Assembly: GCA_963576735.1 (NCBI GenBank)
Contig: OY755182.1
Coordinates: forward strand, 6,882,001 to 6,946,000
Length of the DNA stretch: 64,000 nucleotides
Direction: 5' to 3'
From: Bedellia somnulentella
Lineage: Eukaryota > Arthropoda > Insecta > Lepidoptera > Bedelliidae
The notes beneath the pieces are model-generated. The model was given only the letters and a program-made list of their open reading frames with translations, did no database searches and was not told the DNA's origin. Positions 12,701 to 63,850 of the stretch are shown piece after piece (position 1 is the stretch's first letter; the number at the start of each line of letters is the position of its first letter). Both the position numbers and the translations under genes were made by a program.

Positions 12701-15700
12701 TGTACTACAATTTTATAGAACACATTATTATCTAAAAAAAATGCCCCCACAGCATATCTCTAACTATTATAGTTATCTCACAACAAGCGTCATTATATGA
12801 AATTATTTAAAAATTAAATTAAAATCCTGCTTTAGAAAAGGCTCTTTATTTGTACCTATCTAATCCTTATAAAAAAACGTATATATTATTTCAGACTACT
12901 TCAATACCCTTATGTTACTTTTTGAATTATTCGATTCGAACATTCCATTCGAAAGTTATCTCGAATTAAAAAAATAGATAAAACTCCGCTCGATTAGCTA
13001 TGCATAGTAAGTTGTTGCAGGCGTCACGAAGGGGTACGGGAGGCTGCTTATCAAAGAGTTAAAGCAAAATTTAATTGTAGCGACTATTATCACTGGCCCA
13101 GCAGCCGGTCAATTAGCTCATATACCGAGGATACCGATGATCCCTACTGATCTGCCAATTCCATTTAAACGGCTACAATTTCCGGTTAAAACATCTTTTG
13201 CTTTAACAATTAATAAGTCCCAAGGCCAAACCTTCAAATTAGTAGGGTTTGACCTGCGAAAGAATTGTTTTACTCACGGTCAACTGTACGTTGGCCTGTC
13301 GCGGGTGGGAGCCCCTGAACATCAATTTATTTTGCTGCCCCAAAATACAACAACGTCGAATATTGCTAACAGGGAAGCTCTAACTCTATAAATTGAATGG
13401 CTTTTGATGTAATTACTCATTATGAAAAATAAAAAATAAAAAAAATATATCTAAATATAAATACAAAAAAATATAACATACATACATACATATACTCACG
13501 GCTATAAATCCCTAGAAGGGGTAGCCAGAGCTAAGGAATCAGAAATTCCTCAGCCACTTTTGGAAGTTGTGTGGGGAAAAGATGGTGAAATAAAGGTTGT
13601 TGGTGATGGGTCTCCAACCGCATCGCCCAAAAATGCCTCAAAAGCCCCAAAACCGTTAGTCGCCTCTTACGTACACCCACCGGAAGAAATGGGGTAGTGC
13701 TATTCTAAGCCGACTCTACACAGCAAAAAAATATAACATAGCTTAAAACTTAAAAAAAAAATATTAAAATAATAATACATGTAATAAAATAAAAAACAAA
13801 ATGTTAATGATAATTTATGCCCGAGCGAAGCCGGGACGGGCTGCTAGTACGAGTATAAAGGTTAAATGAGTGACCGAATACCTGTAGAGCTAGATAATGA
13901 GTAGGATTTTCCTTAAATGTGTACAGCCCACGTGTCTACCTGCCCTGATAAGATTGCGAACAATTTGATAACATTGTTCATCTATTCCGCACTGATATTT
14001 TTAGGAACATTGCCACGCTGAAATCTTCTCGCCGCTACAGCGTTATGAGTTTTTTACTGCATACTTAGCCTTTGTTTACTTGAAGCGTATTACTACTTTG
14101 TTCATATGTTCCGTTTTATGTATTCCAACGTTTATAAGCCACTTTGGCAAATATTATTAAAATATGGGTTGTGGATGTAGTAGAAGCATAGCTTAACAGT
14201 TTTACACTTAATCGCTTCTCACGATTCTCACTGAGAGAAATACGACAACGTTTCCTTCGTATACAGCTCTTAAAATTAAATCAGACTATTAAACATCCAT
14301 AAAAAAGATTTTAAGACAGTACACCGATCACTAAAAGAACTTTGAAAGCGCCGCCTGTTCAATATCATTATTTAGTGATTTATAATGGATGCTACCAGCT
14401 CGACGTCTGACTGATGACTATGTGATGTCATGTGACCAACCAGTGTCGTAATCTTAACAAAGTTTGATCAAATGAGCTCGCCATACTAGGTCATACTGGA
14501 CGGTCGCTGCAATGAATTGCGACTGACATACTATAAAGCTTTATAGTTCATTTTTTTACTTTGATTTTTTATTGGTCTTTCTCTTAAAACATTTATTATA
14601 ATACCGTCTCATTTATATGAACTTCGATGAATACATGCAATTTATTGTTAAAGCAATAAAGCTAGACAGGCAGGAGGGAATTTTGCCTTCTCCTGAAAGC
14701 TATTCACTTTTTATATAGATATAACATCACGCCTAAATATTTTGATAAAGATAGCCGTGTAGTGTCGGCTTAGAATAACACTACCCCATTTCTACCCGTG
14801 GGTGATCGTAAAAGGCGACTAAGGGTATAGGGGCTTTGAAGTAATTTTTGGGCGATGTGGTTGGAGACCCGTCACCAACAATTATTTATTATTGCTATCT
14901 TTTCCCCACTCAACTTCCAAAAGTGGCTGAGGAATTTCTTATTCCAAAGCTCTGGCTACCCCGTTAAGGGATTTATAGCCGTGAGTATATGTATTTGCTG
15001 TGTAGTGCCGGCTTAGAATAACACTACCCCATTTCTACCCGTGGGTGATCGTAAGAGGCGACTAAGGGTATAGGGGCTTTTCAAGTGTTTTTTGGGCGAT
15101 GTGGTTGGAGACCCGTCACCAAAAACATTTTTATTACCATCTTTTCCCCACTCAACTTCCAAAAGTGGCTGAGGAATTTCTCATTCCAAAGCTCTGGCTA
15201 CCCCGTCTAGGGAATTATAGCCGTGAGTCTATGTATGTATAGCCTCTCTCTGCATGTCATGATCTTGCATCTCTCGTTTCTCATAGACTTTCAGTTCACG
15301 ACTATGCATCTTAAAACAGAGGAGTTGTTTAATTACTCTTCGATCTCTGTAAACTACTACTCGTCGTTTAGATTTACTCAATTTGTTGCTTAAAAAAGAG
15401 ATTACTTTATGCATCCCTTTTGTTACTTAAATATTCGTATGTGTGCTACATAATAAACCCATCTGTTACTCTGTATCTAGACAATTGTGTTGATAGACTC
15501 ATTTGAATGAACGAATTGTGCGCTTCTGGTTTGAGGTCTAATTGATGTTTCATGATTGTAATAGGTGTATTATTAGCGAGTCGTGTTTCGCATTAATTGA
15601 GACTGACTGTTCAACTTATACCACAGAGGAGACGTATTTATATGAGTCTTTTATTTGAGAAGAGCTTGTTATGTTTAATTTTATAGTGGTTCATTATCTT

Positions 15701-18700
15701 CACTGCGACAATAAAAGAAATTTAAGTAACACTAAGTATGAAAATATTTATTGGAGCTACGAAGCTTAGACAGGTTACAAGAATCCATACATCCATCCAT
15801 CCTTCAAATTGCCGATCCATATTCCCTGCCTAGCTGCCTTCCCATATGGCATGTGTATATGTATATATATGTGTATTTTATTCCACTTCAGTAGCTAATA
15901 TCTAAGTAGTATATGTTCAAATATCTTTTTCATTATTACTATTCTCTAGTTATATTTTAAAGGTTTATATGTTCAAATATCTTTATTAGTGTATGCGTAC
16001 GCGACAAAATAGGAAATAAATTATGATTTTTTCCGATGTACGAAAGTTTAACATGTATAAAGCATTTAGTAGCACAAATTATGGCACAAACATGTAGGTA
16101 AAACAAAAACATACAATCTGACATGAATCTGGAAGTACTATATGTAACTTGTGTAAATATTTCTCACTGATAACGCTGTCATAATGCGGATATGGTTGTT
16201 GAATCACCAGGTGTTCTCATGACCAGGTTGCTTGGACAGTCAAAATCAATTATATTCATGTCTTTTATTCCTAGAGGAGGAGGCAAAGAATATCGATCGT
16301 CACTTAGCATGATCCTGACCAATATCTCTTGCTTTCCTTTCAAGCACCATGCGTGTCTGTTCTCTACTAAAAAGACCATCCATATTGCTTCATCATCATC
16401 ATCATCATCATTCATCCGCTCCATGAGCCTAAACCACCTTATGATTCCTTTTTCTGTCTTGTACATAACGTCACCTTTTATATCTTGCTATCATCTTATC
16501 TTCATAAATTATGATGTGTCATGATTTGTGTATTCAATGCTTTGATAATTCTTCCTGAGATCAGAGTCATACATTTTCACTTGATGTTTTGTTGTTTTTT
16601 TTATATGCATCAGGATAATGAAAAGCTGACAAAGTCCTAAGCATCCATAAATATGTTGTATTTATAGCGCTCCCGCAGAAAGTAAATATAGAGGTCTACA
16701 ACTACATAGCGTCTAGGATGTATATCTGTTAACTGTTGGCAGAGGTACATTTTTTTGATTAAAACAACATTTTTTCCATAGAACTAGTATTAAGCTATTC
16801 TAACTCCCGTATACTCACACGTATATCTATTCCAGGGTTGGATATGCGTGTGGCAGTGCCAGACGGCGACGCCGACGCACCACCTCGCGTTCTCCCCGGA
16901 CGGGGTGTTGTTCGCCACGTCCGGGGTCAACGACCGGCTCGTCAAGATTTGGTATCAGAATAAAGGTAGGAAACTTTTGTATCTTCGTCAGTAGTCTAAT
17001 GCCTTATTAGCGTGCTGAAAATAGGTGTCAAAATAATTTGACTAGTTATAAGAATACTGATATTAAGCTTCTAAAAAATATCATAGAGTTTAACTAAAAA
17101 AATGACTTTTGTATGCTATTAACTTCACATTATACAACTACCCACATCAGACATCTTCGACAGAATAATTAGAGAATTAATATATTGTTTATTTCAGTAC
17201 TTCTTCAAATGCAAACGGAACACACGCCAGAGTTTAACTACACCTTCATTTACATTGCGCACCCCCGAGCTATCACCCATCTGTCTTGGAGGAAGACCAG
17301 CAAATATATGCCCAAGTATGACTAGCTAGATTTAACACTGTTTGTGAAGTTGATCGAATGTTTTGTTTGATAGTTATATCCACATTATTAGGAGCCCCAC
17401 AAGTAATTTAAATCGAAATTGTAAAATCCAGTTCAAAAGATTAGAAGTTAGTCTTTCCATTAACTACACCGATTTAAATTCCTTATTAAACCTTACCAGA
17501 GCACTGTGGAAAAAGGTAGAACAAGAGCATATCGAAAATACTTTTTACGAATATCATAATTTGTCTAATATGGTTATTTTATTAGGTTCTCTAATAATTG
17601 TTATATAATATTCATTACGTTTTTTCACAAAATTGCACAAAATTACATTATTTTTCATGTGTAGAAAGTATATACAACACAGGAGTACCAAACTTATATC
17701 TTTATGTACACGTATTTCAAAACCATATTGTGAAAGAAATATTTGGTACAGATATGCAGTATCATACATTTTTGGAAAGGTTGTTTCATGTTTATTACAA
17801 TACATGTCTTTGATTTCTAAAAAAGCGACAAATGTTTCAGTAGGTACTTAAAAAGTGACATACCATATTTTTCACTGATTTATTTTTTTCTTCGAAGGTT
17901 TTCATTATTACCCACGTCTCCCCACGCGCTACATTTTGTGTTAATTGATAGTCTAACTATTCTTTAACACAAGAAAAAAAAATCAGCTGCGGATGTTTGC
18001 GGTTTTGGAAAATATCAGCAAGAATGTTATAAAGGACGGAACAGAAAATCGGTATATTTTGCGGTTTACCACCGTTCAAAATTAATTAATATTCATTGAT
18101 AACGAGGGTATATTATCAAGTTTGCACTCATTTTGCGAAAGAATAAAAAAAAAATAAAAAAAATTTTTTTTTTTTTAGAAATTATACATTATTTGAATAT
18201 CTACACCTTACTGCATATATGTACCAAATTTCATCACTTTAGGACAAAAACTCATGAAGTTATATATTTTCGATCCGATACCGACCTGTCCTGCCCACAG
18301 TGCAGAGGCAGGGTAGGCACGGTAGTGACGTCATGCGTAGGAAATACCTATCGAGTGTAGGCCGAGACTTCCCTACCAGAGGACGAACGGGGTGACAGTG
18401 TTACTGCGCACTCCATCAGTCCACAGTGATCCTGCCTAAAATCTCTAAACTCATGCAATATTAAGCCCTCTTTAAATATCCTTTTGGCACTCATCTAGAG
18501 TCATGCTGATTAAAATCCATCAAACCACACTATATAAAACCTTCTTTTAACTACTCAGGGGAAGTGTAGGCAACGTGCTAGTGACGTCATGCGTAGACAA
18601 CATCTGTCGCGTGTGGGCTGAGACTTTGCTACCCGAAGACGAATGGGGAGGCAGTGTAACAGCGCACTCGAGATCGCCCCCGAGAAGACATCGCGCCACG

Positions 18701-21700
18701 CATAGACATAAACATCGGTTTATGCAACGGTTGAAGCATATGAAGTAAGTTGACTTTGAATTTTCGTTTTATATTATTTAGAAAAAATACAAGAATAATA
18801 TCGTCAATAGGTGTTCATTGTTGGACATAGGCCTTCCGAAAATCGTGCCCAATTGCGCTGAGCGTACCAGGACAGTTACCGGTGTGTGCGGCGAATAAAA
18901 TGTATTTAGTTTGTTGACATGTTGTGCTACAAGTAGAGAAATATAGTGATTTGTAAGTCATCATGAATTATACGTAAATGTAAATTAAAAACTCGTTATA
19001 TAATCTTCTATTTTATGCATTATTATGGAAAGATACTGACAGTTGAAAATCTCATGGCACGTTTTGAATGTACCATTGCCAACCCTCAGTGGTTCATAAG
19101 TTATATAGCAAGAAAAGTATAAAGACTAAAATTTCCTTATTAAAAGTATTAAGCACAATTTAGCTGATAGTAGTAAATGCCTGCAAGTGGCGGCGGTTGA
19201 GTGGTGTGTTGTGTATCAGGACATGTTTCCACATCAGACGGCACGCGCAGTCGTCGCGCACGCCGGCCGCGCCGCTGCCCACGCTGCCGTCCACGTACAG
19301 CGCGCACGACTTCCACGGCGCGCACCACGTCACCTCCTACACGGGCGGTGAGTACACCCACTACACTATTAGACATGTTTCCACATCAGACCGCGCCGCT
19401 GCCCACGCTGCCGTCCACGTACAGCGCGCACGACTTCCACGGCGCGCACCACGTCACCTCCTACACGGGCGGTGAGTACACCCACTACACTATTAGACAT
19501 GTTTCCACATCAGACCGCGCCGCTGCCCACGCTGCCGTCCACGTACAGCGCGCACGACTTCCACGGCGCGCACCACGTCACCTCCTACACGGGCGGTGAG
19601 TACACCCACTACACTATTAGACATGTTTCCACATCAGACCGCGCCGCTGCCCACGCTGCCGTCCACGTACAGCGCGCACGACTTCCACGGCGCGCACCAC
19701 GTCACCTCCTACACGGGCGGTGAGTACACCCACTACACTATTAGACATGTTTCCACATCAGACCGCGCCGCTGCCCACGCTGCCGTCCACGTACAGCGCG
19801 CACGACTTCCACGGCGCGCACCACGTCACCTCCTACACGGGCGGTGAGTACACCCACTACACTATTAGACATGTTTCCACATCAGACCGCGCCGCTGCCC
19901 ACGCTGCCGTCCACGTACAGTGCGCACGACTTCCACGGCGCGCACCACGTCACCTCCTACACGGGCGGTGAGTACACCCACTACACTATTAGACATGTTT
20001 CCACATCAGACCGCGCCGCTGCCCACGCTGCCGTCCACGTACAGCGCGCACGACTTCCACGGCGCGCACCACGTCACCTCCTACACGGGCGGTGAGTACA
20101 CCCACTACACTATTAGACATGTTTCCACATCAGACCGCGCCGCTGCCCACGCTGCCGTCCACGTACAGCGCGCACGACTTCCACGGCGCGCACCACGTCA
20201 CCTCCTACACGGGCGGTGAGTACACCCACTACACTATTAGACATGTTTCCACATCAGACCGCGCCGCTGCCCACGCTGCCGTCCACGTACAGCGCGCACG
20301 ACTTCCACGGCGCGCACCACGTCACCTCCTACACGGGCGGTGAGTACACCCACTACACTATTAGACATGTTTCCACATCAGACCGCGCCGCTGCCCACGC
20401 TGCCGTCCACGTACAGCGCGCACGACTTCCACGGCGCGCACCACGTCACCTCCTACACGGGCGGTGAGTACACCCACTACACTATTAGACATGTTTCCAC
20501 ATCAGACCGCGCCGCTGCCCACGCTGCCGTCCACGTACAGCGCGCACGACTTCCACGGCGCGCACCACGTCACCTCCTACACGGGCGGTGAGTACACCCA
20601 CTACACTATTAGACATGTTTCCACATCAGACCGCGCCGCTGCCCACGCTGCCGTCCACGTACAGCGCGCACGACTTCCACGGCGCGCACCACGTCACCTC
20701 CTACACGGGCGGTGAGTACACCCACTACACTATTAGACATGTTTCCACATCAGACCGCGCCGCTGCCCACGCTGCCGTCCACGTACAGTGCGCACGACTT
20801 CCACGGCGCGCACCACGTCACCTCCTACACGGGCGGTGAGTACACCCACTACACTATTAGACATGTTTCCACATCAGACCGCGCCGCTGCCCACGCTGCC
20901 GTCCACGTACAGCGCGCACGACTTCCACGGCGCGCACCACGTCACCTCCTACACGGGCGGTGAGTACACCCACTACACTATTAGACATGTTTCCACATCA
21001 GACCGCGCCGCTGCCCACGCTGCCGTCCACGTACAGCGCGCACGACTTCCACGGCGCGCACCACGTCACCTCCTACACGGGCGGTGAGTACACCCACTAC
21101 ACTATTAGACATGTTTCCACATCAGACCGCGCCGCTGCCCACGCTGCCGTCCACGTACAGCGCGCACGACTTCCACGGCGCGCACCACGTCACCTCCTAC
21201 ACGGGCGGTGAGTACACCCACTACACTATTAGACATGTTTCCACATCAGACCGCGCCGCTGCCCACGCTGCCGTCCACGTACAGCGCGCACGACTTCCAC
21301 GGCGCGCACCACGTCACCTCCTACACGGGCGGTGAGTACACCCACTACACTATTAGACATGTTTCCACATCAGACCGCGCCGCTGCCCACGCTGCCGTCC
21401 ACGTACAGCGCGCACGACTTCCACGGCGCGCACCACGTCACCTCCTACACAGGCGGTGAGTACACACACGTACGAATAACTTGTACCTAGCCATGTGGGT
21501 TTCCTCACGATGTTTTCCCTCACCTTTAACAACCATGAAAAACCTCGAATATGACTTTTAGAAAAGACAAATTGGTGTAGGCCCGACCCGGGTTTTGAAC
21601 TCAGGCCCATTTGTTTTCGGGCGGGTGTACTACTCATTGGACTATCATGTCGTACCCATTGGACTATCATGCTGTCGTTTATATAAGTCTTACTTGTTTA

Positions 21701-24700
21701 GTGTCAGAAGAAAAAATATATGGCTCAGAATAGCCATTTCTTTTCGCGGGTATTGTAAAAGGCGAATTAGGGTTTCAGAGCTATTTAAGTAATTTATTTA
21801 CTCAACTTCCAAAAGTAGCTGAAGAATTTCTAATACTTAAACTTTGGCTACCCCTTTTAGGGTTTATAGCCGTGCATCTTTTTATGTATGTAATATCTTA
21901 GTCAAAACCGAGCGCTTCCCTGTGACTTTTTATTTGATTTGATTCCCCTTGATTACAGCGACCTATGTGATTAATTGGTCGCTGATTCAAATATTAACGC
22001 ACCCAATGTGAAAATAAGATTAATTTACAACAATTTAAAATGTACTGATTTGTTTAGAATAGTTCGAAGTTTATTTTAAGAGAGGGTATTGTTTAATTAC
22101 CATGAAATAGTGATACATTTGTTACTTTCCTGTAGGTCTTCATTTCCACCTGTCAGCGTCAATAAATGCGGAAACAGATATACCACTGGTACCCTCTTTA
22201 TCTGGCGGAGGGCGGTTCATACTACATTGGTTGCATAACAAAGAAATGCATTTCACCAGTCAAGCGGAGGCCATATTACACGATCTCACCAAAAAGGTAA
22301 ACTATACAAACATTATCTTGTGTGTGTTTTCCAGAGAAAGATATTTTTACATTCAAATGCCATGTTGTGTTAAACTAATTAAACTCGTGTGTACTATATG
22401 TAAAGAAAAATATGCCTCTGTTTTTTGTCTTTCTTTAATAAATATTTTTAGCATACAAGACCATTGCAGCGTTTTAATAGCGTAAAAAACCAATGCCGAA
22501 ACACTTTTGGATTTCCATAATTTGCTTGTCAATTTGCGTTTCGTCATAATAACATGTGCATCAATAAAATATAAGATTAAATTTAATAAATGAAATTGGT
22601 TTCAGATTTTGGACAAAGAAGAGTCTGATGAAATCGGCTCGGGTTCAGAACACACACATAATGAAGGTGAACATGAAAGTAGGTTACCATTTTTTTCACT
22701 TTAATAAACATATTCATAAATTACTGCTGTTGTAGGTAAACTATGGCGGCTTTTAGTAACAAAGATGTATAAGTAATTCGTTGAGTATCCATAAGAAATG
22801 CTTATTTGTATCTAACGTTATAATTTCTGCTATTAGGCTTCGTAAATATTTAGTCAACGAAGTAAAATTACGCGGCTTTTTAATACATCGGGTTAATAGC
22901 AAATAATTGTAAATTAATCTAAAACCTTAAAAGGTTTGATGCCAGGAGTAATTAATTATCTGCTATTAAAGTAGTTTTTAAAACTTGAAACATATACTTT
23001 TAATATACGTTTAAATTATAACAATGAGCGTAACATCATCAAATTGTATATTTCTGCCAGGTTGGCAAAAAATACGAAGCAGTAAAAAATATAGTTAATA
23101 ATATTTCGAATGCCTCTTCCAATTAAGGCAATAATTGCTATAATGCAGTAAATAAGAGATTCAACCGTCACATGAATCTAATAATAAACCATAACAAGGT
23201 CTCAGTACAAGGTATATACGTAGTAAATTTGGTCATTAGTTTCATGCTGAGCCTTTTATGTAATATTTGTGTATGATTTCCATAGTGGTAAATCCATTGC
23301 TTATTTCATGCTGCTATTAGGACCTAGGCGAGCGAGTCATCAGTTAATTAAAACGCAATCTGAGGACACTAGCAATAGTGACGAGCATCAACCAGGTACT
23401 GTAATATTTGTTTGAGGAAAGTTATATCATTGTAGGAAAAATAATAATTCTACTCTGACGGTCAACTCTTCACATCGAAAACGATAATAGGCATACCTAT
23501 CTCTTCTCTTCTAACCCCTATTAAAACGTATTTCTGTCTTGCTGACACGAAACGAATATTCGTATTTTGACATTTCTCCTATATGAGAATACATACAATA
23601 TTAGAAGAATCCAACGATACCTGCGTAGTTGTCTTTGGATTCATCGACTCGAAAGCGACAATATTAATATTGTTCTATACATTTCAAAATGTCAAAATGG
23701 TGCGAGCGAGACAGAAATAAATGTTAATATGGGTAGAAGAGGATCGTATTCTAATTATCGTTCTCGGCGTGAAAAGTAGACCTTTTGCAGCTCAGGCTAC
23801 CCTTTTTTGGGATATATGGCCGTGAGTATATGTATACATGTGAAAAATATTGAGAGGAAGCTTTTTTGGAATTCCAAATTTTAATACTATTTTAACAAAA
23901 ACTACTGCTAGTTAATATCTAATTTCGGCTCACAATAACTTGCTGTGGCAAGTTACAAGGCTACTAAACGACTGAAACTCATCACCAAGACAAGACAAGG
24001 TTAGACAAAGTTATAGACAAGGTTAAAACTAAATTAGGTTAATTAAGGAAAATCCTACTCAATACAAATAATTAACTACCAACCACATGGTATCACAGGT
24101 AGCGTGAACCACAGCCACCCAACTCTGTCGAACACCACCTCCATAAACTCCATAGCGACCGACGTGACTTGCACTCATCTGCCAGATTCGCTGGACGCTA
24201 AAATTGAAGTGCTTTTGAGGGATTGGCATCAGAGTCCTGATTTACTGTTCTCTATTCATCCTGTTGATGGCAGTTTTCTTATTTGGTGAGTTGATTTCCT
24301 TAGTAATATCATCTAAAAACATACTAACACGGTGATGCACAAATATGTCTGAGATTATATAGATCAGGGGTTAAAACATTTTATTACATATGAGCTAAGA
24401 TATGCGAAAAACATTGTTAAGACTTGGTATAACTTGTACTATTAATCTTAGTAAGTTGAAGTAAATGAATTTTCCCAATTAGATATATATTTTTATATAA
24501 AAATTATGCCCAAAATCACAAGGTTCTATGTGTACAAAGTTGGCAGGCCTTTGATATACCTGTTCAAATGACAGCAAGAGCGGAATTGATTTAAAGTCCC
24601 ACTAGTGCCAAGTCATAGTCATAACTTTGTTGGAGGTTAAGGAAACACCGATCTTTTATAATTGTAGTATTTGTTCAAAATAAGATACTTGCTGCTACTG

Positions 24701-27700: not shown

Positions 27701-30700
27701 CGTACTTTAGAGAGCACAATATCACGGTAGCGACTGCTAGGCGTCGTCCTAATTGGGAGCGATCGTACGTTGGCGCGATGCGTTTTTCATCTCACAATCA
27801 ACGATTACTCGAGTGATCGCGCGATTACTCGCGAGGTTCAAATAGGACACTGATGAAATCTGTATGTTTGAACGACGAGAACGCATCGTGTCATCGTACG
27901 ATCGTTAACTATTAGGACGACTTCCCAGTCTTCCAATCCTAATCAGTCCAACGCTATAGGCATACTCACAAACCTCCTGCTATATTATTCCAGACCGCGA
28001 CCGCGGCGCCACAGCGGCAAGTGAAGCAAGCGCCGGCGGTCTCTGTTCCGAGCTGATAATGTGGCGCGTGGAGTGCGTGGGCCCGCTCGGCAAGTCGGGC
28101 GGCGTGGCCGAGCTGGCGCGGGTCAACTCGCCGCACCTGTCCGCCTTCAGCAACGTGGCCTGGCTGCCCACGCTGTTACCCAGGTATACCACTACCATCA
28201 CTCATTTTTGTGGAAGCAGCCAAGATATACTGGCCAGTACTTAGGTAGAAAAACTTTTACATACCGCGATGTAGAATTGTAAGAGAGAAGCTGCTATGTT
28301 CGATTGAGTCCGATGTAGTTTGCGATCAACTTAACATGCCCTGGCTGCCCACGCTGCTACCCAGGTATACCACTATCACACAAACTGTATCAAATCATAA
28401 CACTACCACCACACACACCATATATCAACGTAACGTGGTATCATCTAAGTCGGAGCTGATAATGTGATGCGTGGAGTGCGTGGGCCCGCTTGGCGAGTCG
28501 AGCTGTCGCTGTTAATTAATTAACGAACACAGCAAAAATATCCTGGCTAATACTTAGCTAGAGAAACATTTAGATACCGCGATGTAGGATTATGAGAGAC
28601 GCTGCTATGTTCGAGTGAGTTCGCTGAAGTTTGTGCTCTATTAGTACCCCCACTCCTATATATCAACTTAACGAGGCCTGGCTGGCCGCTGCTGAGGTAT
28701 ATCTCTATTATACAAAACTGTATCAACTCTTTAAGTCTAGTGCCATACTCAACATTTATCAACATAATGTGGCCTGGCTGCCCACGCTGCTGCCAAGGTA
28801 TACCACCATAAAACTTAGAGCGGAAACCAAATGTAGTACCAGACACACCATATATCAACATAACGTGGCCTCATCAAACTCGGAACTGATCATGAGGCGC
28901 GTGGAGTGCGTAGGGCCGCTCGAGAAGAAGGAAACGAGATCTCCGCTATAATCTTTAGTTCAGTCGAAACAACATGCGACAATAAAAAACACATATTCCT
29001 ATCCTATTCGCACTATGTATTAAAAATACCGTGTCCATAAATTGGGCAAATATCACATTCCAAATAAATATAAACAAACTTTTTTTCACAAGCATTTTTT
29101 GTTTCTTATGGCTACTGTTACAAGGTAATGTCGAAATTATTATTGGCCTTGTTCTATACCATCCTAAAAAACAACATAGATTTTACTACCAATTTTATAC
29201 TAATTAAGTTTCTCTTTTCCAGCACAACCTTAGGCAACCTATCGAATACCCCGTCCGCGTGTTTCGTGGCAAGCGACGGCGAGAGCCTGCGCGTGTTCCA
29301 GGCGGTCATCGACGCGAGGACGCTACTGGCCGAGATTGCGTCGTCTGAGAGGAAACATAAGAATGGACTTGTAAATATATTTTTTTGCACGTTTTTGATC
29401 TTTGATTTTTGGTTATTGTTAGAGATTTTTGGGGTTTCGAACCTAAAACGGAGCCTATTGCTAATAAGACTAAGCTGTCTGTCTGTCATCAGACTATATC
29501 TAATAAACTGTGTTCAAATAAATCGTGATAACTAGAAAGTTGAAAATTTCACAGAATATGTATTCCCGATGCCGCTGTTGCAGTAAAATCTGATTAAAAT
29601 ACATATTTACTGCTACTATATACGTATTTATGTCAATTTAAATTGAAGTTAAACTCATTCTGATATAAATGGTCTCTAATTAACTTAATAAATCATATAT
29701 TTATTAAGTTAATTATTTATTAGCCTAGTTATTTATTGACTTTACCATCCATTAAACCTTGCCTAACTATTTTTAACCGTCTTCAAAAAAAGGAGGTTCT
29801 CAGTTCGATTGTTTGTATGTATGAATGTTTGTCCGCGATTATATAATTTGCATTTGATATTTGAAGTGTTATGGTTTTCCCGCTAGAACCACGACACAAC
29901 GTCAATGTCCTCCCAATCATCGCTGTCGTCGTGCGGGCCGCCGCTGCACACGCGCGTGCGGCTGGTGTCGCAGCAGTCCACGGCGCGGCCCGGCGCGGTG
30001 GTGCAGCTGCACGCCATCGCGGACGCCACGCACGACTGGCACAACACGCAGCTGCTGCACGTCTTTCAGGAGCAGCTCATCACTGGTAACTATTGGACTT
30101 GCCAATGTATTTGTAATACTGACAGAATGTGTATATTTGGTGTATAGACGATTATGTTATATGAAAATATCATGAGAAGATAGCGATAGGAATAACTCTT
30201 TCTTACTCAGACTTAACTTACCGGCCTTTGGAAGAGATAGAGATGCATTACAATCCGAACGCTTAGGATTACGTTTTATATGTTGTATTTACAGTGTAGC
30301 AATTTACTGAATAAAAATGTGGATATTTTTTTAATTATCATTATTATCTGGTATTCCCACCAAATTGACCTCTCGCTATAGCCTGTAGAAAGTATTATTG
30401 AGATTTCGTAAATTTTATATCTGATAATCTTTGTACCTTCCAGGCGAACGCACATCTTCCTCAGCTAGTTCCGATGACGGTTCAGATGGTATTGACATGA
30501 ACCCAATGGGCGAACCCGGGTTAGAGGCGATGGTAGATCTACGAAAATCAACAGTGTTCAATGAACCATTCTACATTGTGGTTTTGGAGAGGACTGACGG
30601 TGGCTCCACAGTGCATATGTGGAGACTTACGATATCTTCGCAGGCTGATCCTAGCGGTAAGTTGTAGAGATGAAAAACATATTTACAGCCAAAGGGTACT

Positions 30701-39700: not shown

Positions 39701-42700
39701 ACAGGATCCACAGGGATAAATCTGTAGGCCAAATACTCTTTTGATATAGGTCATATCAATGAATAGAAACGCCCTATTAAATTTTACGAATAAATACGTC
39801 ATCAGTTGAGTGAGTAGGGAAGGTAAAATTATTGAATTTAATATATAACTATTAAGATACAGGCAAAGAGAAAAATAATAAAGTAAAGAAAAAATATTTA
39901 TTCATTGCACATTATTAGAATAAAGAAATATAAGTTTTTATAATGCACTAATATAAAATAGACAAAATAAAAAAAATAGCAATGTTTCTTGTTGTAAGTT
40001 TAACCTCACAACAATAATTTTGGGTTGGCATCGCATCAATGCGACCTATTTAAGTGGATACGAATAATATTGATAAATGCCCTGATTTCAAATATTTTTA
40101 TAAAGCCATTTCACTAACAAAATATTGAAAATTATTCAAACAGCAACTTTATTCCGAATGCTCATCAAAGTTTCTGAAGTGACTATGCCGCACAAATCAG
40201 TATTTTAGTGCAGTTAAATATATTTCTAGTCTACGAAATAAAACAAAAATATTATTTATACACACAATGTGAGTGAAGACTTGTTAATACGGCTATATAT
40301 GAATGTTGGTTGGTCACCACCGCCTATATGTAAATGTATGTGTATCACGGCATGGCACGTGCACGTTTGTTGCAGCGCGGCTGGTCTCGCTCGCGCACGT
40401 AATATACAGCGTATACCACTTGAAACAAAATGTAGCTTGCTTTAGCTATAGAAAATGAAATGATTTACACTATTTACTTAGGATAAATGTTCAGAGCTTA
40501 AAATGTTTATTACAATTATGGCAACTTAATCGTAAATCAAATGTTTCAAATTATCCATACAGCATCATAATCTTGCCTACACATCAAAGATTCTGAATTG
40601 CACACAACCTGAATGTGCCTTGCAATTACGTTTTTAACGACATTTTCGTTCTGTGTTAGGTTAGTTACAGACTTTATTTACTTGCAATCATTCTAGACTG
40701 CAAGATTATAAAAAAATGTAAGTAACGAAAGGTCACAGGCTATATGTGAATGTATGTGTATCACGGCATGGCACGTGCACGTTTGTTGCAGCGCGGCTGG
40801 TCTCGCTCGCGCACGCTGTCCGTCTCTTTCGCTGCGGGCGCCGCCTCGCCGATAGATGGCGTTGCTCAGGTAAGTGGTTTACTTTCGCATTGGGAAGGTT
40901 GCTGTGATTGTTGAAATGAAGAGTGATTAGCGTGAGATTATAAACATTAAATCAAATTTCTTATATTAAAAAAAATACATTGATCGCATTGTAGATGTGG
41001 CTGAGGAATTTTTGGGAGCTCAGATTCCAATTTTTCGTATTTTAAAATCTTCCCAGACATAAGAGCTTGTTGGCCAAGTTCTGTTTGGAAAAAAAGTTAA
41101 ATCGACCCTATTGAAGAAAAATCGCGACTTAAATTTCTCCTTCAATCGCTTTGCTTCTTTCTTTTTTACACAGTTTATTTTTGAAAATGATTAGCTTTAT
41201 TAGCTATCTAGAATTGGCTTATAATTGCACTAACTTTAATCTTCTCGTGGGTGTTCTTCAAGACTTCTAAGGGTATAGGACTATTCTGGGCTGGAAACCC
41301 TATATCAACGTTACCAAACATCTGTCTGTCTGTCTTTCTGTATGTCCGGTCATCACGTTAAATTCATCAAGAAGCCGCCTCACCTACTTGTACCACAGCA
41401 GTTACATTTCTGGTTCCGTCCCCATTGACAAGTGCGGACGATATACGTAGTAATAAAAAGTCTCCGCATGGAAGTAGGACGTGCAGACATAGTAATACAG
41501 TGTTGTTTCACGTAGATATCGTATTACGTGCATACATAGTAATACAGTGCTGTTTGACGTAGATATCGGAGGACGTGCAGCTAGACTACGCGGAGCTGAC
41601 GTCAGTGCCGCCGCTGCCGCTGTGGACGCTGCTGGTGGCGGACCGGGAGTCGCCGCACCACCCCTCCACCGCGCAAGAGGCTAAGGTTAGTGGTTGCCGT
41701 CTATACGGAAACATATATCTTACGGAAACTACTGGCTTTTAACAATAGGCCTCATCAGAAGCCAATACTTCAAAGCACAATAGAGAGGGTTATGTTACTA
41801 GTTTCACTAGGTGATTAAATCTGAAACGAGGGAACCGTAGACTTGGTATACGGGACCGGGATAATTGACATTACCCAAAGGACTGCGAAACTCAAGTGGC
41901 AGGGCAAATTTGCTCGCAGAACCAACGGCCGTTGGCGCTCGAATGTTCTGGAGTGACGGCCACGTAACAGACGACGCAGTGTGGGTAGGCCTTCTAAAAG
42001 GTGGACCGACGACTTGGTGAAAGTTGCAGGTAGCCGATGGATGAGTACAGCAACAGGACCGGTCGTTGTGGAAATCTTTAGGGGAGGCCTTTGTCCGTAC
42101 GTCTAATAACACTGTACACAATAGCGATCCCAAAACAGCGGTCACAAATATATGGCGTAATTTGGCACTGTGTCTTGTTTTACTGCCATTCATTCCGTCG
42201 GAAAGCGTAGTTGATACAGCATAAATATATTGAGTGTTTTCTCTTTATCAATTCCAGTTTCCATATTTAAATGGTTTTGAAACATTTGGATATTTAACTT
42301 TGACCAAAATTAAATATTTGTGTAAAAATATGCGATTACTTAGTAATGTTTTACACAATTTGCGTGATGTTTATTTCATGTATGTCATACATGAAATAAA
42401 CACAGTATATAAATTTTCCTACTCTGTGTAAACTAAATATGATGTTAAAGGACTACAACGAGTTGTTCGAGGGCACAATGGACACGGACGAAGACCTAGA
42501 CAAATTGCTGTTGAGCGATGAAGATGGCATCGACCGCAGACCTTCTATGCCGGAGAGGCAAGCCTTGTCACACTTTGGACCGCGACAAGGTAATATCAGT
42601 TTGCTTTTTTAATTCCTTGTTGCCAAGAACCGAAAACCCTATTTGGATTTTAATAATTTAAACGTGTTTCATAAAAGTAGATAAAATATGGTGTTTCGTT

Positions 42701-45700
42701 GTAGTTTATCTTTAAGAAAGTCTACCACTACCCCATTCAGCTGTTTCTGTAGATTACGTCAAAGACGACTAGCGCCAAAATGAGGAAAATGAGTTGTCAC
42801 GAAATGGCGTCATTGCACATTATAAAGAAGAATATAAGCCATCGTATAAACTTACAAGTTAAAAATCAATCTCAATTTAAAGATGCCAGTTTTATTTCTC
42901 GTTGCCGTCATAATCAAAACTAACCTACTTCCAGGTCGAATCTTATCCCGTCTGCTGACCCACACCCACCTCCCGGGACTCAGCTCGCTAGACCAAATGC
43001 ACTTATTGGCTCTAGCCGATACTGTATCGACGTGTGACGCTGACTTCGCCGAGAGGTTCGCCACTAACTCGAAGGTGGACGGAAATTTGACTGCGCAGGA
43101 TGTTGCTCCAGGTATTATACTAAGTTTGCTAGACAAGGTTAGAAGTGAGAGACTGGCAGATTTTGTATGAATAATCGGTCGGTTTCTCACTTCTCTTGTG
43201 ACATACCCACTATCACAAGCCTCATACTACTGGAGCATTTGTTAGCACTAACCGATACAGTATCGACGTGTGACACTGACTTCGCATAATATTAACCAGG
43301 TATTATACTAAGTTATCTAGAGCAGCATACCTAGTACGAGCGGCCTTTTTAACTAGATATCGCGTGGTATAAAGCAGCCATCTCTTACGCACTTACTTAG
43401 TGTCGTATACTCTCATCTCATTTTAACCATTATCGTGTCGATAAAATAGCGCTCGTACTAGGCCTCGTGGTGCACTTGTTAGAACTAGCTGATACAAATC
43501 TAATCCCGTCTGCTGACCCACACCCACCTCCCGGGACTAAGCTCGCTAAACCAAATGCACTTATTGCTGATTTTACCGAGAGGTTCGCTACCAACTCCAA
43601 GGTGGACGGGAATCTGACTGCGCAGGATGTTGCACCAGGTAAAGTTATATAAAAGTAAAATATACGCAAATAACACTTAAATTAAAACAATACAAAAACA
43701 TTACAAAACTATCTGAAGCAAGAAATGGTTTCTGCGAAGACTGCTAGGACAGATGGCTGGTTTTGAAACTGGATATTTGACAGCGATTTATTTAAAACAA
43801 AAAGATTTGGCAGCTGACGATAAGTAAAGCTTGATCTATATTTTGATTCTCGTTCATTGTACTTGATATAATAGAATAGAATAGAAAACTCTTTATTGTA
43901 CATCAAATATGGAAAAACAATTACAAATACACAGAATGAATTAAAAAAAGTACAATTGGCGGTCTTATCACTAAAAGCGATCTCTTCCAGACAACCTTTG
44001 AATGGAGAGGTTTCATAATCACCATGGTTTCAGCCAATAGACGTTTGTTGTTTCATATAAGCACATCCTTTAGCTAGATTATTGTAGATATACAAGATAA
44101 TGTTGACAAATTGTGAGTGTCCTCATATAAGGAGTATGGCTTTTCTTTTTAAATTCACCACTTTTCGACCATTTTGATAGCTTGAAGAGGTTAGAAGAAG
44201 GAGATAGAAAAACACCTGCCGAAAATTCAAGAGGCATGAGATCAAATCTTGAAGTAAACCCTTGTGCTTTGTAATTTTTTTAAACAATTCCGACTGTTGT
44301 TTTTTAAAGGAAATCGTATATCGCTGACTTTGCATATAGTTTTGTGACTGAGTGTATCCAAATCTTCTGTCGAAGTGAATAGTGACTATTACGACCACTA
44401 GTGTAACTAAATCACCACGTGAAATACAGCAAACCTTATTCTCTGCAACCCGTGTTATTTCAGATTCGCTAGACGATTGCGGTCTTCGTTTCCTGCTAGC
44501 AATGAAGCACTACGGCTACCTGCTCCGCTGCCTACCCCTAGCGCAGCGGGCCAGCTTGCAGCGAACTGGTGTGGGCACTTGTAACGTGGTCTGGGCGTTC
44601 CATTCGGAAACACATGAACAGTTGTTGCAACTCATACCAGGATATGCTAAAGGCACGCCGAAATGGAGCACTATGAGGGAACTTGGTAAGTTTCAGATAC
44701 GAAGTAAGTTTGGACAAGACAGAAGCACATTCGAATTAAACTGAAAGTGTTTGCTGGATTTACTGGATGGTTGATGTTTATTTGCTGATGGTTTTAAGAG
44801 TGATATAATTGGTCTAAACTTAAACTTTTCTGACGTGAAAATGTCTTAGAAATAGACGAACGGAGGCTACATGCACATAACAGTGTCATGTCCTGCGAAC
44901 GAGAGCGAGAATAAGCGCCGGCGATCCATTTGTAAAATAACATACATACATATACTCACGCCGTTAATTCCCATGGGGGTAGGCAGAGACTATCGATCGC
45001 CACTTCGTACGATCCTGGCATACCTCTCTTGCTTAGTTTACATCAATCAATCTTTTCATGCATGCTCTTTTATTCTTCATACTTCGGACGCCTGCCTTTT
45101 TGAGCACACTCTCAATTTGGTCCAAGTGTGTCTTTCGTGGCCGTCCTCTACTAACATTACCTTCCACATTAACTCTATAGATACATTTTACCAATTTCCT
45201 ATCATCCATCCTCTCGATGTGCCCAAACCATCTCAACAAGAATCTTTTTAGTATATTTGCTAGCTATATAGATGTCATTACTGTCAGTACTTATTAAATA
45301 ATATAATCTAAGGTTAACCACCGTAACTAAACCGTTTTTTTCCACAGGCGTAGGCTGGTGGCTCCGTGGGCGCGACCTACTCCGTATCTGCGTAGAAAAG
45401 CTGGCACGAGCCGCATACAAATCACACCAGGATCCGATGGATGCAGCACTATATTACCTTGCTATGAAGAAGAAAGCGTTGTTGTGGGGACTGTTTAGGA
45501 GCCAGCGGGATGAGAAGATGACTGCTGTAAGTATATTTTATTGATCTATACTATAATAAGACTGTACCGAGGTCAAAACTGTACATTGAAGAAAAAAAAT
45601 TAAAACCGGTGGAGTATGTTAAATTTTCAAAACTGAAACGAAATTTTTGCTTTTTGAAAAAAATGACTGTCTGTCTGTCTGTCTGTATGTCCGGTCATCA

Positions 45701-48700
45701 CGTTAATTCTACCAAACGGATCTTGATCAAATTTGGTATGAATGTAGCTTATACGCCTGGCCAACATATATGATATCATTTGTTTCGGATTTCGCAAGGG
45801 ATCCCACAGGAGCATCACAAAACCATAACCTTCCATACCAAATCGTTACTAATGTATATATTTTATACTAGATGGCGCGAGTAGTTGCTTTCTACATCGC
45901 GGTATGAGTTCTTCTTTTCTTTTTATAAATACTTCAGTTCAGACTAAACTTTAATGACAGTTCGAAGTCTGCCGGGTCAGTTAGTATGTAAGTATTAACA
46001 TACATTACAACCCAATTTTAGAACTACCATCTATTACTGATCGGCTACAAACTCTTACACAATCACCAACGGTCAGTGTAGGGGGCGGCACCGGGCCACC
46101 ACCGCAGCGCCAAACTACTATCCATCCATAATTCGAAAGATATTCTAAATATAGTTACTTGGTACAAAATTGTTAGTTTCATGATTCTTATGAACCATTT
46201 AAAAGGGTTTTTGAAACTCAACCCCTAAGGGGTTGAAATATCAAGTACATATATATTAGTATAGACATTTTTGACATTTCTGTATCTAGAAATTTGAAAC
46301 TTGTTTTGATTGACTGTTATAACCACTACAAAAAGGAATATATGAAATTCATCTATTAATCATTCATGAGTATATACTAACCGCTATAAATCCCATAAAA
46401 GGGGACCCATTGCTTCAGAGATAGTAATTCTTTATCCACTTTTAGAAGTTGAATGGAGAAAAGGTAGTCAAATGGGTCTCCAACTGCATCGCCCAACAAT
46501 CACTTAAAAAGCCTCAATGTTCTTTATATCCGTTGTTGTTATTAAGACCGCGGGAATATAAATATAAAAAATAAATATTTTGGGTGTAAACTGGATGCAA
46601 AAAAAAAGTCCACTCGGACGTAGTCGGGGGCAAAAAGCTAGTTAGTATTATATACTTACAAGAGTTAGGCGTTGGGGCTCGATTATTCTTGAGTGGCTCC
46701 CACGTGCTGAAACCGTGTGGGTGATGGTAGGCCTTCCACAAGGTAGACCGATTTCTTGGTGAAAATCGTGTGGAAGTCGATGGCTGAGGGCAGCACATTT
46801 ACGGTGGTTGTGGAAATCATAGACCCACTGTGACATATTTACTTTGCCTTCAATAAATGTAAATTTTAATTTATTCAAATAGCTCATCCGATTTTTTTAA
46901 TACTAAATATTTAATTACTTTTATTTTATTTTCAGTTCTTTGCAAACAATTTCACTGAAGAGCGCTGGCGCAAAGCTGCATTGAAAAACGCGTTCGCTTT
47001 GTTAGGAAAACAACGGTTCGAACATGCTGCTGCTTTCTTCTTACTTGGTGGAGCCCTGAAAGATGCACTAGAAGTAATATATTCATTAAATATTTGTAAA
47101 ACCACCTCTCTTAGTGATAAATACTAACCAAATTGGGATAGCATTTAAAAAAAATATAATAAGGCAAGAACAACGAACTTTCATGTGTTCCTTGAAGATA
47201 TCAGCTCTCAGCAAGATCATGCAATATTTAACTCGTTTCCTTGTATCCTGTGTGGTAAATATTATTGTGTGAGTAAATCAAAAGGTTCTTTCTAAGCAGA
47301 TTTACTTAGGTCAAAACCTAGACGCAAAATAGAGAGAATGAATAAATACTATTTTTAATATTTATTCATTCTCTCTATTTGGCGTCTAGGTTTTATTAAT
47401 TATTTTTGATATTTATCTCTTAAACCCAGAAGTGAAAATGCATATAGTAATGAGACCAATAATTATTCTTGTAATATGATGTATTAACACTAAACGTATA
47501 TTTATATTCTAGGTGTTAATATTCCGACTTGGAGATCTGCAATTGGCAATGGTTGTGTCTCGCCTGTACGAGTCGGATAAACCGCAGCCAGATAGCCTGA
47601 GGAAACTGCTCATCGATGACATCCTAGGGTAATATTGCTTTTCACGTATCACACTTCTTTTATTTATGCTAAACATAAAAAAACTGTGTTTTGTTGTTTA
47701 TTCCAACTGTGAAATGCTATGACCAAACTCACTTGATAAATAATATACATAACATAAACGTTCACGCCGAATATCCCCGAAGGGGTTGGCAGAGGTACTA
47801 ATACTTCTGAACATCACGTGACTTTGTCACCTGGTGTTCAGAGTACCCACGTTTTGCATGGACAGTGTACTCACGTGATAGGGGGCAGGCCTATCGCCAT
47901 TTTGTACGAATACACTGTCACATGACTAAGTACAACTCAGCCATGTGGGTTTCCTCACGATGTTTTCCCTCACCGTTAACAACCATGATAAATTAACCAC
48001 ACATATGTCTTTAGAAAAGACAAATTGGTGTAGGCCCGACCCAGGATTTGAACACTAGTCGTTTGCACGATAACCGAGTGTTCTACCCACTGGGCTATCA
48101 CGGTTATCACTTGATAAAGCAGCTAAAAACACCATTATTATTAATGGTATTTTGGATTCAATAACTTTTTGTCTCAAAATCAAACGTTAGAGCCGTATAT
48201 CCCTGATGGTGTGGAAGAGGTATCACAAGTTTGGAATATCACGTGACATTAATACCACCTGGTATTCAAAGTACCCATGTTTTGCTTGGACAGTTCACTT
48301 ACATAAAGGGGCGGGCCTATCGCTGTTTTTGAACAAATTAATAAGTACAACTCAGCCATGTGGGTTTCCTCATCTTTTTTTGACATTCGACTCAGGACAC
48401 AGCGCTTCTCTGCATGAGAGGCGTTGATGATCACACTACAGTAATATTAGTATTCTAACTAAAAAAATATATTCCAGCGGCGACCCAGAAGACAACAGCA
48501 CATTACACGAGAACTCACACGCCGACCCGTTCGTTCGTTCAATGGCGCTGTGGGAACTAAAACAATATGGCGGCGCGCTCGACACGTTACTATGCGCCGC
48601 CAGACCACACCACGCCGCTGACCACGAGCCGCAGCCCAGTGTCTTCAACTTCTATATATACCTGCGAACGCACCCCAGATTGAAACGACATAATATGCCT

Positions 48701-51700
48701 GCGCAGGTGAGTTTCTCACACTAATTTACAACTAAAACAATATGGTGGCGCAAGATACGTTTCTATGCGACGCCAGACCACACCACGCCGCTGACCACGA
48801 GCCGCAGCCCAGTGTCTTCAACTTCTATATATAAACGAACGAACGAAAACGAACTCGTTTACTTACAATAACAGTTATTACATACATACATACATATACT
48901 CACGGCTGTAAATCCCTAGTAGGGGTAGCCAGAGCTAAGGAATTAGAAACTCGTCAGCCACTTTTGGAAATTTGAGTGGGGTAAAGATGGTAAAATAAAG
49001 GTTATTGCTGATGGGTCTCCAACCGCATCGCCCAAAAGTCTCTTAAAAGCCCCAATACCGTTAGTCGCCTCTTACGTACACCCACCGGCAGAAATGGGGT
49101 AGTGCTATTCTAAGCCGACACTACACAGCAACTAGTTGTTAATTAAATGAATATTATATAAATTGTTTTATTAAGACATTTCAATACGTAAATAAACTAG
49201 CCTGTATAATGTAAAATTATTTTATTTTATTTTATTGAGGAAACAAACAGTCGTTTTAACAAATATGTATAAAGTTTACAAGGACATATCATAAACCTAT
49301 AGTTCCCTAAATATATAGAAACAATTGAAATTAGCGTAGTTTCCCTTATAATGGTTAATTTTTATGTACTGGCAATACTAATATCGATGACAGCGACGAC
49401 CTTACCGGCCAAGAAAAGATTGTGGATCTGTACATGTAACTCTTGTTCTTAAAATAACTTTTTTAAATTTTATTTAATGTTAACTTCTTAGTAAAAACAA
49501 ATCTATTGTAATACAGGGTGGCACCGTAGCACTATTCAACCAAGACGAAGAAGGAATAACACGTCTCGAACGAAGGCTATACTTCCAAACGGCGCACGGC
49601 CACTTCAAGGCCGGTTGCCCAGCCTTAGCCTTGGAAGTGCTGAGCAAACTCCCTTCGAAGATTCGTGATGAGAAGGTGCGGCCTACGGCTTCGGAGTCGC
49701 TGGATAAAGATGGAATTATCACGGGCCAGTTGGAATCGGGGCCCGGCAAAAGTACGCCTATTTCACATCCGTTTGTACGTCTATGTGCCTGTTTTGTTTC
49801 GACACTAACTTACGCAAGTTCTCGCGAGAGGATTGTGGTATGCTTGCGGAATTTTACTTTTTTTTGCAACGTTTGCTTTGGCACGCTTATGTTCGTATCT
49901 GCTCACATTTTGAATAACCAAAAACTGTGTGTATTATATTGAAACATGTCGGTTAAATAATTAACTAAAATCTTTATCCCTAGACTGCATGAACTACTGG
50001 GTACAATTACCATTCACATGATCATTCCCATTTTTTGGAATTGGTTACAATTCATATTAAATGCACATTTTTTGACATGACAATTATTTCCTTTATATTT
50101 GTACAATTTTGAATAACATAATCATTATTTGCTTTAAAATTATGACATAACTTTTATCACCTAATAATTCAGATTTATTGTTGTTACATATTTTCAAAAT
50201 TTAAGTTCGTAACTTTTAAACAACACGCCTGGCGCACCTGGCTAATAATTTTGCAATTTAACACCACTTCACAGGTTGTAGTTTTTTTGCTTTATTTAAT
50301 TCATCATATATTTCACGGTGTGATATACAGAGGTGATTGCTTGCTAGCCTTTCCTATGCATATAGAACTAAAATATAAACCTGTAATACGTTTATAGCAG
50401 CTCCGGAGCCAAGCGTAGATTGGGGAGCGCCTAGCGCAGATATAGACTGGAGCGCGCCTGTCAGCCAAACTAAGAACGATGAATTAGTGCTTAGCTGGGA
50501 TGATGAAGGGGAGAAGAGGTACTGTATTATTGTTCTATTGCCTGGTTATTGGATTGTCTTTAATTTCTTGTGAATATTTATTCCATATTTTATAATATCG
50601 ATCTATAAACCTTTAACGGTTCGTAGAAGTCTAGAGCTAAGACTAAATGGGAGATACAAAAAATATAGGGAAAGTCGTAAAGTATTTTTTTTAATAATAA
50701 GAGAAAACTTTATTTTTGTCTATATATAAATTTGTTTAACGACGATGACTTTATACTTTAGAATTAGTTATTATAACAAAAATATAGATCCATAGAAAAG
50801 ACTGATTTAAACAAAGCATTTAATATATAAAATAAAATTAGTCAAAATGAAACTGATGTTTTCAGTCCCGAGTCCGGAGCGTCTACTCCTCCGTTAGAGA
50901 TGAAAATGGACAAAAAAGAAACCCCGAATGGTAAAAAGCCGTCAACTTCCGAAAATGACGCAGTACCACAGGTTGATATAATGGCGCAGCAGCTCAAATT
51001 TGTAGCGTGTCTCAAAATATTGATGGAGGAACTCAGCACGTTGGCCACTGGATTCGAAGTTGATGGTGAGACATTATTGTAAATAATTTGCAATATATTT
51101 AACCTACTTTGCAAAAAAATATATTTTGTATTAGGTTGAGAAAATGACTAGTACTCGTATGTTGATAGAATCTGCGAATTATAGCACTGTTTATTTATAG
51201 CTTATTGTACCATTAATCATTATTATTGAAATGCGGTAGCAGACTGCAGGGCGTCTTAAGTCGTACCTAAATATTTTAATTGCTATATGTTGTTGTTAAG
51301 AAACTGTAGACTCAATTTCAGTAAAATGTAACCTGCAATTCATTTTGCAAACAACCTGCCTGTTTTAGTTATTATCGCTATTATATCATAAACATGTAGC
51401 GTTCATAAAAGATTTGATCGGTATCGCAGGCGGGCACCTCCGCTACCAGCTATACATCTGGCTGGAGCGGTCCACGGCGGCGCTGCGGCGGCTGTGCGGG
51501 TACGCTTGTGCGCGCGGCGGGGAGCTGCTGGGCGCCGAGCACGAGCCGCCCGCGCTGCCCGACCGGCCCACGCTGCACCAGCTGCTCAGCAAGGAGAAAC
51601 ACGACTTCGAGGCCAAGGTACAGCGCGCCGTCAAGAGGAAGAACTGGCTCAAAGGTGAACATGTACATTTTATCTGTTGATATTAGAAATAACAGTGACG

Positions 51701-63269: not shown

Positions 63270-63850
63270 TTAAATAAATTAACAATCAAATAGAGCTCCC
63301 TCCTCACACCCAGTTTGGTATTTTGTTTCATGTGGAGCCCATATGACTGAATTGAATTCAAGTTTGCTCCTAACTAAAGCATTGTACAGTGCCTTCATCG
63401 CTCTAAAATTTGTAAACTCACGAGATGTGCGTATTATAAAACCAAGCATTTTAAACGCTTTCTTGCAAATGTCGACAATGTGATTACGAAAAGAAAGGTT
63501 CGATGTGAAATTAACCCCTAAATCTCCTGCACGCGACGCACCTCTACTCCGTTGATTGTATAAGTGTAAATGTGAGGTGCACGCTGTCGGCTAAATGTAA
63601 TAACCACACATTTTTTTTTAATTGAGCTCTAACTTATTTGCTTTGATCCAATTTACAACATTATTTATGTCTCTTTGAAGCAATTCGCAATCTGTGGGTG
63701 AAGAAATTGGGAGAAATAGTTTTACATCATCCGCAAACATTAGGCAAGTTGAATGTTGGAGGACTAATGGCAGATCATTTATCATGATTAAATTAATGGG
63801 CCTAAGTTGCTTCCCTGATTAACACCCGAGTTATTGAGTATTGTTTAATA
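63270..63850 (-). pseudogene. Jockey-like LINE reverse transcriptase fragment
   Basis: Minus-strand reading gives MFADDVKLFLPISSPTDCEL with the FADD catalytic box, then LQRDINNVVNWIKANKLE. After a frame change come DLGVNFTSNLSFRNHIVDIC, KKAFKMLGFIIRTSREFTNF and ALYNALVRSKLEFNSVIWAP. This is the palm and thumb region of a non-LTR reverse transcriptase. Frameshifts and missing ends show it is dead. Confidence 0.85.

Follow-up and report, generated by a model that had tools for sequence, protein, structure and literature searches.

Repeated exon boundaries in a Rabconnectin-3A/DmX-like gene of Bedellia somnulentella: a probable idle mirage and local exon copies along one gene

Introduction

When the boundary between an exon and its intron is repeated many times over inside that intron, the gene could acquire either a supply of optional coding cassettes or a series of splice sites that the spliceosome has to ignore. 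This question is raised by a 64,000-nucleotide stretch of the Bedellia somnulentella genome (contig OY755182.1, positions 6,882,001 to 6,946,000 of the forward strand), called here the window, in which copies of an exon boundary follow exon 7 of a conserved gene. A preliminary description made from the letters of the sequence offered both answers, reading the copies as a combinatorial source of protein repeats in a WD40 loop or as a burden of decoy sites. The analysis below combines a model of the gene with comparisons to homologs, searches of the assembly, and scoring of splice sites and reading frames, and it sets the locus beside repeat systems described in other organisms. Coordinates are those of the window.

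Results

Rabconnectin-3A/DmX-like proteins are large WD40 proteins of the Rav1 family, RAVE regulators of the V-ATPase, and the plus strand of the window holds most of one such gene, which extends beyond the window into the adjoining 10 kb. Identity of the gene rests on a match to Rav1 (9cop, E 1.8e-25, the one match in the PDB) and on a search of proteins that gave 1514 matches; among the best 120 of these 1514, the top 36 include 35 named lepidopterans. Fitting splice sites to one ortholog, a procedure that leaves some exon borders uncertain, gave a model of 50 exon segments and 49 introns, with 8367 bp and 2789 codons that contain no stop when read through the donor of the first boundary copy (copy 0). 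The model protein is 76 to 82% identical to the top 36 listed orthologs, and its match to orthologs is collinear and keeps the frame intact, as a member of this family should. An ortholog profile search of the assembly placed all 19 scored matches inside the window (17 of 69 candidates were scored). An intronic open frame at 13011 to 13388 is presumably akin to the PIF1-type helicases of Helitrons, and minus-strand open frames at 63282 to 63818 seem to us to resemble fragments of a reverse transcriptase from a non-LTR retrotransposon.

Three plus-strand exons frame the repeats that we call array 1. Exon 6 (18559 to 18744) ends in phase 2 according to the ortholog-guided splice fit and phases, exon 7 (19220 to 19347, 128 bp) is entered in phase 2 and left in phase 1 and serves as copy 0 of the repeated boundary, and exon 8 (22136 to 22296, 161 bp) was placed by the splice fit. 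In 34 of the top 36 listed orthologs the exon 7 segment (KTCFHIRR...SYTGG-like) runs into exon 8 (GLHFHL) without an insert, the remaining two being without the search motif for that segment.

Array 1 is a real feature, far beyond chance. It occupies 19348 to 21455 on the plus strand as 17 units of 124 bp, each opening with 24 bp of intron-like sequence, headed by GTGAGT, and closing with a copy of exon 7 that is short of 28 bp. The number and length of the units had been given in the preliminary description, and both were borne out by a donor-to-donor spacing of exactly 124 bp (first donor at 19348, last at 21456) and by Tandem Repeats Finder (19267 to 21469, period 124, 17.8 copies, 99% matches). 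Its further statement, that each unit presents an AG, a 99-bp cassette, and GTGAGT, agrees with inspection of the units: the first cassette spans 19373 to 19471, the next ones follow at 124-bp steps until the last at 21357 to 21455, and beyond the last GTGAGT (21456 to 21461) intron 7 continues with a different sequence. The 28 bp said to be missing from every cassette are indeed a single gap, the exonic part of the unit starting at the first base of exon 7 and matching it at 100 bases without a difference. GGGCG/GTGAGT stands at the donor in 18 of 18 copies (0 to 17), with GCGGTGAGT at the copies displayed. A second AG in each unit, 42 bp past the donor, delimits an 82-bp cassette.

Differences among the units are few (mean pairwise difference, 0.27% per site). 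Fourteen of the 17 are identical, C78T is common to units 5 and 12, seven apart, and G120A occurs in unit 17; the last unit and its downstream flank deviate from the inner units. All 17 matches to array 1 in a DNA search of the 548.9-Mb assembly (486 contigs) fall at this locus, and a dispersed transposon was rejected as its source because nothing elsewhere in the assembly matches.

To compare splice sites, matrices were built from the model's 49 introns, with leave-one-out reference scores and with exon 7's sites excluded from training when exon 7 and the array were scored. The donor of copies 0 to 17 scores 8.35, at the 67th percentile of real donors, a value reached by 1% of the 3444 other GTs in the window. 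The two candidate acceptors in the array score -0.4 and -1.7, with 1 of the 49 real acceptors lower and 43 of the 49 at 4 or above, and these two scores are matched or exceeded by 36% and 48%, respectively, of the 3107 other AGs in the window. The acceptor of exon 8 scores 10.6 (exon 8 kept in training), and that of exon 7 scores 1.2 (8th percentile, with 25% of window AGs equal or better), a lead of 1.6 bits over the better of the two in the array. With exon 7 itself served by a weak acceptor, the matrix separates less well than its scores suggest, and the array acceptors may still be usable. The site at 19200 to 19219 is an acceptor among the weakest of the gene, attached to an exon with a strong donor, and recognition of exon 7 may depend on that donor. 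Since exon 7 may rely on it, 17 extra copies of the donor are not obviously harmless.

When spliced to exon 8, copy 0's donor leaves the reading frame intact, and the donors of copies 1 to 17 each lead to a stop; omission of exon 8 (161 bp) causes a frameshift. As every later donor brings a stop, the productive path would run from the copy 0 donor to exon 8 and discard the array. The claim that a cassette is open after the phase-1 donor of exon 7 and itself ends in phase 1 held up, in that the whole model stays stop-free with one 99-bp cassette inserted; one 82-bp cassette brings in a stop. This openness is no evidence of coding, because all three frames of the 99-bp cassette are open, and a length divisible by three is a one-in-three event by chance. 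Spacers between neighbouring cassettes measure 25 or 42 bp, and the shortest of the 49 introns in the model measures 188 bp, so the 25-bp spacer had correctly been called too short for an intron. For the route proposed around it, from donor n to acceptor n+2, the distance of 149 bp was right, but as an intron it too would fall short of the 188-bp minimum. Selection on the cassettes is unsupported, with three open frames and only two variants, and a special RNA structure is likewise unsupported (two-unit fold z, -0.6).

Homologs were searched for any trace of the cassettes. The cassette peptide is absent from all 177 collected homologs, a set whose best identity is about 82% and which includes no close relative, so that it is silent on the species' own transcripts; nor does the TLPSTY motif occur twice in any of the 177. 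Among the 143 homologs in which the exon 7 to exon 8 spacing is measurable, it is 18 residues in 107 and 19 residues in 36. A protein search with a two-cassette insert returned 57 proteins, none with a cassette, and a search with the array's stop-free frame returned one match, a single-copy reading of exon 7. A PDB search with exons 6 to 9 gave no matches.

The preliminary description had array 1 right but overlooked another array in the same gene and the exon copies scattered more widely along it. Array 2 follows a plus-strand exon at 58425 to 58587 (splice fit and alignment), the last 48 to 50 bp of which form its seed, and it consists of nine 128-bp units at 58588 to 59739 on the plus strand, each composed of intron DNA, the exon end, and a donor (Tandem Repeats Finder and unit inspection). 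The assembly DNA search found it at this sole locus. Its donor lies at the 8th percentile of real donors, the donors of copies 1 to 9 each lead to a stop, and the two best AGs delimit cassettes of 77 and 32 bp, neither divisible by three. Because array 2 is without a cassette of this kind, the in-frame 99-bp cassette of array 1 is probably incidental.

What is new here is this second array together with local partial copies beside 11 of the 50 exons of one gene. Self-comparison of the window, with repeated families removed and local direct copies clustered, yielded 13 clusters, 12 of which overlap exons. Circular shifts (n = 2000) placed a mean of 5.8 and a maximum of 11 clusters on exons, in a test that is favoured by exon conservation and in which two clusters fall on a single exon and a match of 34 bp counts as a cluster. 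Outside both arrays, best copy identities range from about 70% to 96%. The next four copied regions lie on the plus strand. The exon at 27994 to 28183 is followed by decayed, re-ordered copies as far as 28922, apparently a decayed array (28152 to 28922). A 96% copy of the acceptor end of exon 40792 to 40869 lies at 40318 to 40399, a 92% partial copy of exon 48478 to 48706 at 48730 to 48833, and an 85% partial copy of exon 54250 to 54490 at 54642 to 54773. More partial same-strand intronic copies of neighbouring exons, some strongly decayed, are found at 18303 to 18413, 43497 to 43641, 52952 to 53017, and 55295 to 55367. Copying from RNA was rejected because some local copies carry intron flanks.

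Exons with copies have a GC content of 0.62 versus 0.52 for those without (rank test with no cut-off, p = 0.0004). At a cut-off of 0.55 chosen post hoc, local copies stand beside 10 of 21 exons with GC of at least 0.55 versus 1 of 29 below it, in a comparison where exon conservation makes old copies easier to detect. As a control, none of 38 matched exon segments from seven other genes has a copy (Fisher p = 0.002), and since only 1 of the 38 reaches GC 0.55 (control mean, 0.43), effects of the gene and of GC are not separated by this result. The controls were three BEACH and four dynein heavy chain genes (46.5 kb), picked for several close-set matches and leaving out other BEACH and dynein genes and exons unmatched by the profile; overlapping profile spans in these searches were attributed to alignments extending into introns. 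One local copy, of 35 bp, occurs in the 46.5 kb, outside the matched exons. Decayed copies easily escape such profile searches of other genes, and the ortholog search of the same kind (17 of 69 scored) recovered none of the local copies known from the window.

Eighteen random 10-kb stretches contained 14 local clusters in 180 kb, versus 13 in the 64 kb of the window, with repeats filtered in a sample-dependent way. One of these stretches carries an AT-rich minisatellite (L023:6959-7814, 45 bp x 19), and two others carry local direct copies, some of them GC-rich, at 0.55 to 0.74 (L014:4926-5850 and L016:5988-7290).

Discussion

Minisatellite-like tandem duplications of exon-intron boundaries have been described as mirages in the amphioxus Adh3 and globin genes (PMC3087553), and by its sequence anatomy array 1 belongs with them. 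In both, boundary copies lie head to tail in an intron with splice signals in the units. The amphioxus report describes AG and GT signals in many units, to which correspond the strong GT donor of every array 1 unit and AGs that are present but weak; it also describes homogenised centres with the edges excluded, together with length and somatic instability (PMC3087553), and in array 1 the inner units are homogenised (14 of 17 identical) and the edge unit and flank differ. The differences lie first in scale, as mirage units of 150 to 160 bp occur as 6 copies in one BflGb6 haplotype and as 3 in the other (PMC3087553), compared with 17 and 9 units here. The array 1 unit also keeps both exon ends and owes its symmetric cassette to an inner 28-bp loss, and the present case comes from another phylum, with two arrays and single copies within one gene. 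The authors of the amphioxus study called the cause unclear and offered an intron-gain model (PMC3087553).

We think it quite likely that array 1 is a young, functionally idle mirage that arose at a GC-rich exon boundary. Exon 7 would itself have seeded the duplication, since local copies are frequent beside the GC-rich exons of this gene. Its boundary would have been duplicated in tandem, the duplicate would have lost 28 bp, and unequal exchange or slippage would presumably have amplified it to 17 near-identical units. The array would now be transcribed and then removed together with intron 7, the copy 0 donor being joined to exon 8 and the other 17 donors acting as decoys. In a minor fraction of transcripts the next donor may be used, or exon 8 skipped, and either event would break the frame. 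The earlier suggestion of a burden of decoy sites fits the sequence, with 18 donors of equal score among which only the first keeps the frame.

The main rival gives these decoys a task. It proposes a length-dependent brake, in which decoy donors are used so often that a large part of the transcript goes to decay, or cause exon 8 to be skipped, so that array length tunes the output of the gene. Eighteen equally strong donors, a stop after every later one, and an exon 8 whose 161 bp break the frame when skipped are all compatible with it, and a precedent comes from the human ABCA7 intron-18 VNTR, which begins with the exon 18 donor and for which length polymorphism and splicing effects are demonstrated: about 2% of transcripts keep one unit, and exon 19 is skipped more often as the VNTR lengthens (PMC5954066). 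Array 1 resembles that VNTR in having the upstream exon's donor in every unit (18 identical donors) and departs from it in that the ABCA7 unit is 25 bp and intronic and the 124-bp unit here includes coding exon. Against such a brake, mirages in amphioxus are reported not to interfere with regular splicing, as followed by RT-PCR (PMC3087553), and the present sequence data hold no sign of regulation or of an effect on expression; we regard it as unlikely.

Decidedly improbable is the other answer of the preliminary description, that 99-bp mini-exons are spliced in combinatorially and extend a loop between WD40 blades by repeats of 33 residues. The cassettes are symmetric (1-1) and open, one of them can be inserted with the model still stop-free, and both variants, only two in number, are synonymous in that frame. 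Human UBC, moreover, indicates that combinatorial splicing is possible for tandem repeats with splice sites: there a dual-specific site serves as donor and acceptor, and the repeats are coding monomers (PMC10809524). A splice site in every tandem-repeat unit is common to UBC and array 1, but the GCG/GTGAGT donor here has no AG preceding the GT, unlike a dual-specific site. The reading gives way before the weak array acceptors, spacers of 25 or 42 bp, three open frames, a cassette peptide present in 0 of 177 collected homologs, a spacing of 18 or 19 residues in all 143 measurable ones, and an array 2 that lacks such cassettes in the same gene. As the exon 7 acceptor hardly outscores the ones in the array, spliced cassettes gain slightly in credit and the idle mirage loses slightly.

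Hardly credible is an assembly artefact, with one or few units in the true genome, which the near identity of the units would suit but which is opposed by the absence of any N in 64 kb, the position within an 18.7-Mb contig, variants recurring in separate units of both arrays, and the differing edge unit and flank, even if the exact copy number of array 1 could be off.

The idle mirage that we favour shares single traits with further systems. Mutually exclusive exon arrays such as Dscam also present repeated exon-like copies within one gene, and the copies there are full, diverged exons, each with a functional acceptor, with longer spacers between them. In human paralogs, repeats of a boundary can become new introns (PMC2812944), and introns have been described as gained by tandem genomic duplication, when an exonic AGGT segment is doubled (PMC3443670). 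In that system, as in array 1, an intragenic tandem duplication supplies new splice sites; unlike it, array 1 duplicates an existing boundary inside an existing intron. Searches of open-licence literature yielded boundary-repeat cases from amphioxus and human and none from an insect, which is not proof of absence.

GC-rich exons may be seeds of boundary duplications. More broadly, and only tentatively, since we hold it to be somewhat less than an even chance, GC-rich coding exons across this genome might be copied repeatedly into adjoining introns, occasionally explode into donor arrays, and then decay. If that is true, one gene displays all the stages, with two arrays still young, another decayed, and several copies that stand singly, and the process would be an active supply of decoy splice sites and future introns outside amphioxus. 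The pattern of exon copies and GC content provides a testable idea for the origin of exon-boundary arrays, and array 1 provides a natural experiment in which, within a conserved gene, the spliceosome has 18 identical donors to pick from.
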